Source of the DNA: Hyphomicrobium sp. LHD-15
GTDB taxonomy: Bacteria > Pseudomonadota > Alphaproteobacteria > Rhizobiales > Hyphomicrobiaceae
Direction: 5' to 3'
NCBI RefSeq assembly: GCF_031157355.1
Contig: NZ_JAVIFT010000005.1
Coordinates: 124,001-188,000 of the forward strand
DNA length: 64,000 nucleotides
The notes under the pieces were generated by a model. The model was not told the DNA's origin. It saw only the letters and a program-made list of their open reading frames with translations, and made no database searches. A program made the position numbers and the translations under genes. Shown here piece after piece: positions 1-2,724 of the stretch; within the stretch, counting starts at the first letter, position 1, and each line of letters starts with the position of its first letter.

Positions 1-596
1 AACGGCGCATGAAGGAAGCCGCTGCCGATCTCGAATTCGAAACCGCCGCGCGTCTGCGCGACGAGGTCAAGCGCCTGCGCGAGACCGAGCTTGCGATTGC
101 CGACGACCCGCTCGCGCGCCAGTCCAACGTCGAGGACAAGGCCGGCCGCTTCGAAGGCGACCGCAAGTTCGCGGGCAATGCCAACGTGCTCGCGGAAAAC
201 AAGAGCTCACGCAAAGGAAATGCGGAGGCAGAATCGCGCATCGCCACGGACTACGAGCCCGTGCAGCCGACTTATGCGCAGTCCACCTCTCGCATTAAGA
301 AGCCGTCGCTCGACGACATGGGTCCCGGAACCGATCGCCCGCTACCGCGACGCCCCGATGTCGATCCCAGAACCAAAGCCGGCGCATTCGGAGAAGGCGT
401 GCGCGGCCCGCACAAGCCGACGCTCGATGAAATGGGCCCGCACGCGTCGCTCGCCGTGAAGAAGGCGGCCGGACCTTTGCCAAAGAAACCTGATCTCTCG
501 GTGCCTAAGCCCACTATCACGCGCGACATCGAGAACGACGCCGAGAAGAAAGCCCGCCGCGGCCGCCCCAAGAAAACCGGGAGACCAGGGCAATAG
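1..596 (+). CDS. uvrB: UvrB excinuclease subunit, C-terminal part (5' truncated by window edge)
   Basis: This is the end of the nucleotide-excision-repair helicase subunit UvrB, open from base 3. The first ~30 residues are a UVR domain (MKEAAADLEFETAARLRDE), the UvrC-interacting helical hairpin that ends every UvrB. Instead of stopping there the protein runs on for about 165 residues. This extension is charged and low in complexity. It contains two related segments (SLDDMGPG and TLDEMGPH) and finishes in a basic RRGRPKKTGRPGQ tail that resembles an AT-hook. The helicase motifs lie upstream of the window. The DNA for the basic tail recurs twice downstream, after the next two genes. The identification rests on the UVR domain. 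A role for the extension is unknown. Confidence 0.88.
   Translation, partial: RRMKEAAADLEFETAARLRDEVKRLRETELAIADDPLARQSNVEDKAGRFEGDRKFAGNANVLAENKSSRKGNAEAESRIATDYEPVQPTYAQSTSRIKKPSLDDMGPGTDRPLPRRPDVDPRTKAGAFGEGVRGPHKPTLDEMGPHASLAVKKAAGPLPKKPDLSVPKPTITRDIENDAEKKARRGRPKKTGRPGQ
538..596 (+). repeat. uvrB 3'-end direct repeat, copy 1 (native)
   Basis: This is the native last ~59 bases of uvrB, coding for DAEKKARRGRPKKTGRPGQ and the stop. The core GCCGCGGCCGCCCCAAGAAA recurs at 1843-1903 and, with one C-to-T change, at 2676-2724. In each copy the same reading frame is open and ends in a stop. Confidence 0.85.
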
Positions 597-698
597 ACAG
601 CCAGCTACAAAATTTTATCGGTAGCGGTACAAAGCGTTTTCACGCTTACATACGATTCTCGACCTTTCACGTTCCGTCAGACCGTGAGGCTCAGACGC

Positions 699-1679
699 AT
701 GCCGTCCTTCTCGAAAACTTTGGAAAGCACTCTGCACCGTTCGCTTGAGTACGCAAATGAGCGCAATCAAGAGTACGCCACACTTGAGCACCTTCTCCTA
801 GCTTTGATCGATGATGCTGACGCAGCAAAAGCCATGCGCGCATGCAATGGCAATCTAGACGCACTTCGCATTCAAACTACAAATTATCTAGATCAAGAAC
901 TTGGACAACATCGAACAAACACGCCAACTGAGGCACAGCCAACGACAGGCTTTCAACGCGTAATTCATCGCGCCGTCGTCCAGGTACAATCGTCCGCAAA
1001 AGACATGGTAACAGGACTAGAAGTTCTAATCGCAATATTTTCAGAAAACGAAAGTTACGCATTTCATTTTTTACAGGAGGCCAACCTAGATCGGCTGGAC
1101 ATAGCACGACACAGCAACCCTCTCCGAGAGAGGGCTAAAGATTTTCCGAAATCCATCCAACACCACAAAACAGCGAAAAACAGCGCATCACAAACAAAAT
1201 CCGTGATGACAAAAAAAGTATTTATAAGTTATCGCAGAGAGGATAGCTCAGGACACACCGGACGCGTTCACGACAGACTGGAGAAAGAGTTCGGCAAAGA
1301 ACTAATATTTATGGATGTTGACGCCATCCCATTGGGAGTAAATTTCGTAAAATACATCAGCGACGAAGTAGGCAAATCCGATGTCATGCTCGCAATCATA
1401 GGTCGCGATTGGCTAAACGCCTGTGACGAGAACGGTCGGAGGCGCCTCGATAATCCAAATGACTTCGTTAGAATTGAGATATCAACCGCCTTACAGCGCG
1501 ATATCCCAGTAATTCCCATAACCGTTGGCGGAGCACCTATGCCTCGCGTGGAAACACTGCCGGAGCCACTAAAGGAACTGGCCTTTCGCAATGGACTGGA
1601 CATAAGGCACAGCTCATTCCATTCTGACATGGACAAACTGGTGAAATCGTTGAGGCGGAGGTTAGGGAGGCAATCATAG
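699..1679 (+). CDS. ClpA N-domain / TIR-domain fusion protein
   Basis: This 326-residue protein has two domains. Residues 1-145 match the N-terminal domain of ClpA (two Clp repeats: MPSFSKTLE, EYATLEHLLLAL, then GFQRVIHRAVVQVQSS and VTGLEVLIAIFSE). In ClpA this domain docks substrates and the ClpS adaptor. After a polar linker, residues 170-300 form a bacterial TIR domain: KKVFISYRRED at its first strand, FMDVDAIPLG, and a FVRIEIS segment whose Glu260 sits where NADase TIRs carry their catalytic glutamate. No AAA+ module, membrane segment or partner gene is present. The ATG at 699 is chosen because it aligns with the usual ClpA start; a GTG at 684 is in frame. Base composition is clearly more AT-rich than the flanks, and the gene sits between two copies of the uvrB tail, which suggests acquisition. 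The domain calls are firm. An anti-phage or NAD-depleting role is inferred. Confidence 0.85.
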   Translation: MPSFSKTLESTLHRSLEYANERNQEYATLEHLLLALIDDADAAKAMRACNGNLDALRIQTTNYLDQELGQHRTNTPTEAQPTTGFQRVIHRAVVQVQSSAKDMVTGLEVLIAIFSENESYAFHFLQEANLDRLDIARHSNPLRERAKDFPKSIQHHKTAKNSASQTKSVMTKKVFISYRREDSSGHTGRVHDRLEKEFGKELIFMDVDAIPLGVNFVKYISDEVGKSDVMLAIIGRDWLNACDENGRRRLDNPNDFVRIEISTALQRDIPVIPITVGGAPMPRVETLPEPLKELAFRNGLDIRHSSFHSDMDKLVKSLRRRLGRQS

Positions 1680-1945
1680 ATTGCTATCGTTCGCGCCTGC
1701 AGGAGCATTATCAATGCTTTTTGCGCGGAGCAGAGAAAGCTAGCGCTTAATTTAAGGCGAATTTCGACGCCGCACTTGACTGCCGCGCACGCCCCACAAA
1801 AAAAAATGTAAGCTGGACTTGCCGGCACGCAGGCCGACGCATGACGCCGAGAAAAAAAGCCCGCCGCGGCCGCCCCAAGAAAGCCGGCCGCCCGGGAAGT
1901 TGACACCGCCACACGACCGACACCGATCCGGGCGTGGAAAGCAGC
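1680..1945. other. Intergenic stretch with second uvrB tail
   Basis: No convincing gene is seen here. The first ~160 bases after the TIR gene are AT-rich like that gene. The composition returns to the chromosomal average at about 1840, where the second copy of the uvrB tail begins. That change coincides with the repeat edge, as expected if the repeat marks the end of an inserted block. Confidence 0.5.
1843..1903 (+). repeat. uvrB 3'-end direct repeat, copy 2
   Basis: This copy is near-identical to 538-590 over about 45 bases. It still reads DAEKKARRGRPKKAGRPGS plus a stop in one open frame, but has no gene body in front of it. It differs from copy 1 by scattered substitutions, mostly in the last 20 bases, so it is an old or diverged copy and not a recent duplication. 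Confidence 0.85.
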
Positions 1946-2641
1946 ATGATCACGCTCTATTCCTACCCTGAGCTGTTTGGCGTTGCCGACAACAACGGCT
2001 ACGGCCTCAAGGTGTTTGCCTTTCTCAAGCTTACTGGCGTGCCCTTCTTGCACGAACACCTCTTCGACGCGTCGCAAGCGCCGCGTGGCCAGCTTCCCTA
2101 CATCGTCGATGACGGAGAGACGATCGGCGACAGCGACGCCATCATCGCGCATCTCGTTCGCAAATACCGCCTGACCATCGATGACGGACTGAGCAGCGCC
2201 CAGCGCGACACCGACCTGATGGTCACGCGCCTACTCGACGACCTCTACTGGGTCATGTCGTATTCGCGCTGGAAGGATGAGCGCTACTTTCCAGCCTTCA
2301 GCGCAGCCCTGAGACGCGAACACCCCGCTCTCACCGAAGAGGGAATTCGCAAGGCACAGGAGTTCAATTTCCAGCGCTACTATTTCCAGGGTATCGGCCG
2401 CTATTCCCCTGACGCTGCCTACGCACGCGGGCTCGCCGACTTGCGCGTTCTGGCAAACCTGATCCCGCCGAGCGGCTACGTCCACGGAGCCGAGCCGGCC
2501 AGCATCGATGCCGCCATTTACGGCTTCACCGCAAACATATTCTTCTATGACATCGACACCCCGCTCAAAGCGTTCGTCTCGTCCAATCCCGGCCTTGTCC
2601 GGCACTGCACAGAGATCCACGCCGCGATCGGATCCTCGTGA
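1946..2641 (+). CDS. Glutathione S-transferase family protein (fungal-type/metaxin-like GST)
   Basis: This 231-residue soluble protein has a thioredoxin-like N-terminal half (MITLYSYPELFGVADNNGYG, GQLPYIVDDGETIGDSDAII) and an all-helical C-terminal half. It resembles the GST subgroup related to metaxin and the fungal or Fax-like GSTs. The GQLPYIVDD segment provides the cis-Pro loop and the GDSDAI segment the glutathione gamma-glutamyl contact known in this fold. The ATG at 1946 is preferred because it begins the first beta strand and has GGAAAG upstream; a GTG at 1934 is in frame. The gene lies between the second and third copies of the uvrB tail and has no operon partner. Substrate is unknown; detoxification is the usual role of the fold. 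Confidence 0.75.
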   Translation: MITLYSYPELFGVADNNGYGLKVFAFLKLTGVPFLHEHLFDASQAPRGQLPYIVDDGETIGDSDAIIAHLVRKYRLTIDDGLSSAQRDTDLMVTRLLDDLYWVMSYSRWKDERYFPAFSAALRREHPALTEEGIRKAQEFNFQRYYFQGIGRYSPDAAYARGLADLRVLANLIPPSGYVHGAEPASIDAAIYGFTANIFFYDIDTPLKAFVSSNPGLVRHCTEIHAAIGSS

Positions 2642-2675
2642 ACATCCGCCTCTCCGTCATCTCCAGAAGACAAGA

Positions 2676-2724
2676 GTTGACCCGCCGCGGCCGCTCCAAG
2701 AAAACCGGGCGGCCGAGGCGTTAG
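2676..2724 (+). repeat. uvrB 3'-end direct repeat, copy 3
   Basis: This is a third, shorter copy of the uvrB terminal segment, reading TRRGRSKKTGRPRR then stop. About 30 bases match copy 1 (CCCGCCGCGGCCGCTCCAAG and the following AAAACCGGG). It lies 35 bases after the GST-like gene. Together with copies 1 and 2 it brackets two cargo genes. Confidence 0.8.

Follow-up and report, generated by a model that had tools for sequence, protein, structure and literature searches.

The TIR NADase SpbK is activated when a phage portal protein clusters it (PMC12847820, excerpt), and in plants a host target can be copied into an NLR immune receptor as bait, an arrangement known as the integrated decoy (PMC4246468, excerpt). 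As for Clp N-domains, a Clp N-domain-like domain located outside an unfoldase, that of mycobacterial ClpC2, sequesters an antibiotic that targets ClpC1 (PMC12913811, excerpt), and ClpN has been reported in the predicted vWA-MoxR/FtsH ternary conflict systems of Burroughs et al. 2020 (PMC7159879, excerpt). Here we describe a gene near the start of a 64,000-nucleotide stretch of Hyphomicrobium sp. LHD-15 (contig NZ_JAVIFT010000005.1, positions 124,001 to 188,000; hereafter the window), which encodes the N-domain of ClpA fused to a SARM1-like TIR domain. No published account of a Clp N-domain/TIR fusion was found in a literature search that was thin on subscription papers and bioRxiv, and PMC7075850 contains no occurrence of Clp.

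The fusion is real. The open reading frame (ORF) of 326 residues begins with an ATG at position 699 that has a GAGG 9 nt upstream, making the GTG at 684, the start given by the ORF tool, unlikely, and its N-terminus, MPSFSKTLE, resembles the starts of ClpAs of the family. In Pfam, both Clp_N (2.7e-12) and TIR_2 (4.5e-11) passed the curated cut-offs, and the best matches of a PDB sequence search were the E. coli ClpA N-domain (2e-24) and the SARM1 TIR (~1e-5). The NCBIfam ClpA models matched residues 5-168 at ~1e-29 but stayed far below their full-length cut-offs because the AAA+ rings are missing; no AAA+ match was detected in the 326 residues, and with the two AAA+ rings of the ClpA unfoldase absent the protein is not a ClpA. 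An AlphaFold2 model (28 alignment rows) had a mean predicted local distance difference test score (pLDDT) of 88 and a predicted template-modelling score (pTM) of 0.53; residues 1-140 and most of 171-326 were confident and 154-167 scored under 50, showing that both domains are folded and that their mutual placement is undefined. Foldseek matched the model to ClpA N-domain chains solved with ClpS (complexes 1mg9 and 1r6o; for 1mg9_B, TM-score by target 0.90, root-mean-square deviation 1.5) and to isolated SARM1 TIR chains (TM-score by target 0.77-0.87), several of which carry ADP-ribose-type ligands according to their titles, while a fold search against viral models gave weak TIR-like matches only. 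Profiles, PDB matches and folds therefore agree with the initial annotation, which had proposed a ClpA-type N-domain and a TIR domain in one protein, and they place the N-domain at residues 1-138.

Glu260, singled out earlier as a candidate catalytic residue, lies opposite the Glu of SARM1 'hkEivtal', which we take to be the catalytic E642. It is invariant (as E92 in alignment numbering) in all 11 aligned TIRs, two of which belong to this fusion and to a second one described below, and W238 is likewise invariant. A TIR fold with a Glu at the conserved catalytic position places the protein in the TIR class, and the union of a TIR with a non-TIR domain within one small protein is SpbK-like. The gene is also AT-rich, as had been noted: its GC3 (G+C fraction at third codon positions) is 0.47, against 0.77 in the N-domain of the host's own ClpA, and the second fusion shows a similar shift (0.32 against 0.57 in the adjoining gatB). 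A promoter and terminator scan found nothing exceeding shuffles.

Because a host-protein domain, a flexible linker and a TIR with a catalytic Glu are combined in one gene within a mobile slot, we read the protein as a putative abortive-infection NADase with a bait. The TIR would be an NADase kept inactive as a monomer, and the N-domain would serve as bait, being a copy of part of a host protein engaged by phages. A phage product targeting ClpA, for which a phage-encoded ClpS-type adaptor is the first candidate and another ClpA-binding or multimeric phage protein the alternative, would bind the bait and cluster several copies, whereupon the clustered TIRs would assemble, NAD would be destroyed and the infected cell would be halted. 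The logic would be that of the plant 'integrated decoy', realized within one protein as in SpbK. From the combined analysis we give such a stand-alone, mobile TIR NADase, sensing phage via a captured ClpA bait, about an even chance, and a defence role of the fusion is plausible. The initial annotation, which had envisaged a sensor of the Clp adaptor or substrates that triggers the TIR, is partly supported in its interpretation; of the triggers it had named, stalled degradation would be less concrete than a phage-encoded adaptor acting as the ligand.

The Clp N-domain/TIR fusion is very rare. Among the matches listed (sorted by E-value), the complete fusion occurs in one of 103 genomes of the family, the window's own, and in none of the 7 other genomes of the genus. 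The order sample yielded it in 2 of 397 genomes, namely the own genome and G112, a member of another family of the order (f11), in which a separate search found it in one of 5 genomes (E <= 1e-45). Samples of the class (385 genomes, E <= 1e-52) and the phylum (398 genomes, E <= 1e-48) contained no fusion beyond the own genome at these strict thresholds, which could miss diverged fusions; as the genome samples overlap, the counts are not additive. A DNA pattern run over a collection of 84,980 species matched solely the second fusion, on contig JAJRPI010000010.1 of a metagenome-assembled genome, Alphaproteobacteria bacterium Dive100_bin1.47, although this pattern was narrow (it required TTT as the Phe codon before QRV, one set spelling of the motif and a 201-261 nt spacer) and the own genome is possibly outside the collection. 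Phage records searched with the fusion gave no match, plasmids gave 33 records with a single domain each and 0 at 80% coverage, and two narrow pattern sets found no fusion in viral contigs. The initial annotation had called for a search of other genomes, and the copy in G112 means that the fusion is not confined to one: it has 325 residues, is 40% identical end to end and has the same domain order with a linker similar in length. Its single-sequence model reached a pLDDT of 36.

The N-domain of the window fusion, described earlier as of alphaproteobacterial ClpA type, nests within the ClpAs of the host family in the tree (support 100/99), being 58-65% identical to those aligned and 62% identical to the host's own ClpA. 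Its mean identity is 63.0% to 29 ClpAs of its own family (f1), 56.9% to 4 ClpAs of f11 and 57.1% to 30 others, and that of the second fusion is 56.7% to f11, 52.8% to f1 and 52.9% to others, with a tie for the single best identity (56.9% in f1, 56.8% in f11). The two fusions are 43% identical to each other in their N-domains and 42% in their TIRs, and the window TIR is 63% identical to the TIR of a TPR-like-repeat protein in a family member (TPR match 1.5e-4). Neither the N-domain nor the TIR grouped the fusions in any bootstrap tree (0 of 200 each). Approximately unbiased tests keep the one-clade option (p 0.43 for the N-domain, p 0.28 for the TIR) and, for the N-domain, also keep both fusions inside f1 (p 0.48), and the branches are long, the second fusion has an odd letter composition and the TIR tree is poorly resolved. 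We favour two independent fusions as the better guess, not as a result.

The TIR subfamily of the fusion is common within the host family, and its partners at the 20 loci read were varied, including TPR repeats by profile and presumably SEL1-like repeats, FGE-like domains and membrane helices, so that the ClpA N-domain is one rare partner of many. TIRs of this SYRR-type subfamily also occur on IMG/VR contigs, joined by eye to a WD40-like repeat region on one (L190) and to a membrane/coiled-coil protein on another (L191). The own genome contains a second TIR_2 protein (G000:C2:939633-939932, a 296-aa open frame), which the fusion TIR does not match at 1e-6.

Of 50,697 phage records, 21 contain a relative of ClpS (15 were listed, among them duplicates of the same phage). 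They include Sinorhizobium phage Phosso and Agrobacterium phage Atu_ph07, where clpS is preceded by genes of Hsp20 type and for thymidine kinase, and a narrow scan added 37 IMG/VR contigs. ClpS is encoded by large phages of Sinorhizobium, Agrobacterium and Pseudomonas, most of them with the ClpA-docking residues retained. That of Atu_ph07 deviates at N66 and H98 (host numbering), which the majority of the other sequences conserve and which presumably have a role in the N-degron pocket. Several jumbo phages were already reported to encode ClpS, which was proposed to direct targets to host ClpAP (PMC7824862, excerpt). The ClpA-docking positions of E. coli ClpS, E79, E82 and K84 (PMC12493166, excerpt), correspond by offset to positions 111, 114 and 116 in the host protein. 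When host ClpS was aligned with 16 viral sequences (3 from phages, 13 from the 37 contigs), position 111 was E in 14 viral rows, position 114 was E or D in 15, and position 116 was K in all 16. Relatives of the ClpA N-domain were found in 117 IMG/VR stretches; 78 of the 80 read are proteins of 736-801 aa with a Walker A motif and the remaining two reach the contig end, so that no stand-alone viral Clp N-domain protein was among these 80. Several of these viral ClpA-type unfoldases, ~750 aa long with an N-domain, are near-copies of each other. With both ClpS and whole ClpA encoded by viruses, the Clp system is a site of phage action and a ClpA bait has plausible viral ligands, phage ClpS being a candidate trigger of the fusion protein.

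The E. coli ClpA residues that contact ClpS are E23, E28, T81 and R86 (PMC12493166, excerpt), which in the PDB-search alignment are E25, E30, T82 and R87 of the fusion. These four are present in both fusions and in 100% of the 63 ClpA rows. The host itself encodes a ClpA, with a ClpS gene beside it. These host genes and the docking residues would also suit a proteostasis or stress alarm, in which the N-domain reads N-degron-loaded host ClpS or unfolded proteins, as ClpC2 engages the latter (PMC12913811, excerpt), and the TIR lowers NAD to impose dormancy under proteotoxic stress. We regard such an alarm as rather unlikely because, unlike a housekeeping stress regulator, the gene is rare, AT-shifted, placed in a swappable slot and, as a full fusion, missing from the 7 other genomes of the genus among the matches listed. 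A free ClpA N-domain can bind ClpS, as the two solved complexes show, and the protein might instead be an anti-adaptor that sequesters ClpS and retunes ClpAP with a catalytically idle TIR as a scaffold, but this is extremely improbable, since both fusions retain the catalytic Glu, for which a scaffold would have no need.

Conservation extends beyond the ClpS face. At the 75 positions that are at least 95% conserved across the 63 ClpAs, the window fusion keeps 55, the second fusion 61 and both together 49, and the window fusion keeps 38 of 43 within positions 1-100 but 17 of 32 within 101-138 (Fisher p 0.001); the corresponding counts of the second fusion, 37 of 43 and 24 of 32, do not differ significantly (p 0.25). 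The 49 shared positions, together with the 117 viral stretches and their mostly full-size proteins, would fit an N-domain that baits some other phage protein or a ClpA inhibitor unrelated to ClpS, or that is triggered by a phage-encoded ClpA, a version we consider quite unlikely. The N-domain of ClpA is not its hexamer-forming part, so that co-assembly of a phage ClpA with the fusion is not expected, and a literature search, judged by its listing, gave no ClpA inhibitor of such a kind, nor is one known to us. The conservation bears also on the view that the fusion is fortuitous or decaying and has no selected function. Its extreme rarity, in one of the family genomes listed and two of the order sample, would agree with this, but two intact ORFs with a matching layout at 40% identity, invariant TIR residues, the confident fold of the window fusion and the better conservation of its first 100 positions, a bias that is not significant in the second fusion, make it very unlikely.

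The gene had been described as lying in a bracketed site, and the brackets can now be named: three 44-bp repeats represent the 3' end of uvrB, which codes for RRGRPKKTGRPG, once in place and twice displaced (Table 1). UvrB was matched in 82 of 102 family genomes (E <= 1e-60), and downstream DNA was taken from 60 of the 81 others; with the own genome this made 61, from which G063 was dropped as its uvrB end was not located, leaving 60, some with stretches that end at contig ends. Same-strand copies of the uvrB tail were found downstream in 6 of the 60 genomes (the own genome and 5 relatives), 0.7-2.1 kb away, and in none of the controls (reverse strand, 0/60; other uvrB 48-mers, 0/569; codon-shuffled tails, 0/1200). 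Clean empty sites were found for two of them. In G048 the DNA that follows the displaced copy can be aligned without offset, base 1 to base 1, to what follows the uvrB stop in G055 (90.8% over 2.5 kb), and in G061 the corresponding alignment with G043 (92%) starts at base 12 of the former and base 5 of the latter; no empty site as clean was found for the own locus. The uvrB 3' end is therefore solidly established as a slot for small, mostly single-gene inserts, each with a tail copy, and such cassettes explain the bracketed site, whose behaviour is that of a mobile slot. No integrase was recognized on reading the main ORFs of the inserts in the 6 genomes, and no paper on the slot was found, as judged by titles.

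The cargo of the own slot is the fusion gene followed by a glutathione S-transferase (GST) gene. Elsewhere it comprises a PhyH gene in G048 (3.3e-14) with a homologue, by eye, in G061, a ParE_like toxin gene in G091 (7.4e-7) preceded by a small ORF that has no Pfam match and is perhaps an antitoxin, and, in G069 and G065, a pair of proteins of 289-301 aa, homologous by eye, with sub-threshold matches to AbiJ_NTD4 (E 0.04 and 0.009). This AbiJ-like pair, present at the uvrB slot in two species, is possibly an undescribed Abi family. The second fusion lies outside any uvrB-type slot and starts 5 bp past the gatB stop; it has two short direct repeats around it, neither of which reproduces the end of gatB, and an imperfect inverted repeat of 45 nt just downstream.

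Table 1. Positions of the fusion gene, its parts and the surrounding uvrB slot (feature, window coordinates, strand, basis)
ClpA N-domain::TIR fusion gene, 326 aa	699..1679	+	ORF, profiles, PDB search, model, fold search
Likely ribosome-binding site GAGG	686..689	+	read in sequence
ClpA-type N-domain, residues 1-138, including E25, E30, T82, R87	699..1112	+	profiles, PDB, alignment; contacts from PMC12493166 (excerpt)
Linker, ~residues 146-170	1134..1208	+	low model confidence (154-167 under 50)
TIR domain, residues 171-323, SARM1-like	1209..1667	+	profiles, PDB, alignment, fold search
Codon of candidate catalytic Glu260	1476..1478	+	SARM1 alignment, TIR alignment
uvrB 3' part (the window begins within the gene)	9..596	+	UVR motif 2.6e-7; entire 996-aa ORF in fetched locus L037
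uvrB 3' tail copy 1, authentic gene end	546..589	+	repeat search
Displaced uvrB tail copy 2, downstream of the fusion gene, 86% identical	1853..1896	+	repeat search, tail scan
Gene resembling glutathione S-transferase, the slot's second cargo	1946..2641	+	GST_N_4 2.6e-20
Displaced uvrB tail copy 3, 77% identical, after the GST gene	2674..2717	+	repeat search, tail scan

Several observations weigh against a phage-sensing bait. That the four ClpS contacts all persist in both fusions is no more than chance would give when the 75 positions of highest conservation are taken as the background (hypergeometric p 0.17), and, because host ClpS is constantly present, a bait that binds any ClpS should be occupied. 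Just two fusions are known. The slot carries cargo beyond defence (PhyH, GST), the AbiJ matches are below cut-off and PADLOC detected nothing at E 0.1 in either AbiJ-like slot protein; the neighbours of the second fusion read, by eye and by no profile search, as housekeeping genes and none as defence. The defence neighbourhood that the initial annotation had proposed to look for is accordingly borne out in part, by the ParE-like toxin and the weak AbiJ-like cargo in the slots of relatives, and not by the PhyH and GST genes or the surroundings of the second fusion. The most specific form of the proposal, a putative integrated decoy in which a ClpS-docking domain was captured, perhaps twice, and wired to a suicide TIR, phage ClpS, for which docking on ClpA is a requirement if host proteolysis is to be redirected, betrays infection, and such one-gene alarms travel as uvrB tail-copying cassettes, is distinctly unlikely to hold in all its parts.

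If functional, the protein would add a new form to the TIR defences that consist of one protein. If the bait mechanism is true, bacteria would have a TIR immune protein that senses through a recognisable copy of one defined piece of a host machine, in direct analogy to the integrated decoys of plants. The role of phage-encoded ClpS would then become testable, and the uvrB slot would be a new site at which to search for single-gene cargo, including defence genes.

Compared with known systems, the fusion has in common with SARM1 and the bacterial SARM1-like TIR NADases the TIR fold and the position of the catalytic Glu, from which NADase activity is predicted here. SARM1 carries ARM/SAM domains, whereas the fusion has none. 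With the ClpA unfoldase it has the N-domain in common, while the D1 and D2 AAA+ rings belong to ClpA only. Thoeris was considered and rejected: ThsB and ThcB4 profiles gave weak, TIR-only matches (1.3e-8 and 1.8e-6, the best covering ~residues 171-233), the ThsB score being weak and partial, and uvrB and GST genes flank the fusion, with no ThsA, effector gene or other partner adjoining it. SpbK of Bacillus subtilis is likewise one small TIR protein, and its clustering on a phage protein is known (PMC12847820, excerpt) whereas that of the fusion is proposed; a ClpA N-domain as the putative sensor belongs to the fusion. ClpC2 offers a parallel to the proposed bait in its detached Clp N-domain-like domain, but it has a C-terminal ClpC-type domain, represses its own promoter and is without a TIR (PMC12913811, excerpt). 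The vWA-MoxR/FtsH ternary systems have in common with the fusion the recruitment of ClpN to predicted conflict systems, but there ClpN repeats are joined to vWA in multi-gene systems (PMC7159879, excerpt), whereas here ClpN and TIR make up one gene. Finally, the copied host target of the plant NLR integrated decoys (PMC4246468, excerpt) would be paralleled by the proposed bait, which in the fusion is part of a single bacterial protein without NB-LRR.
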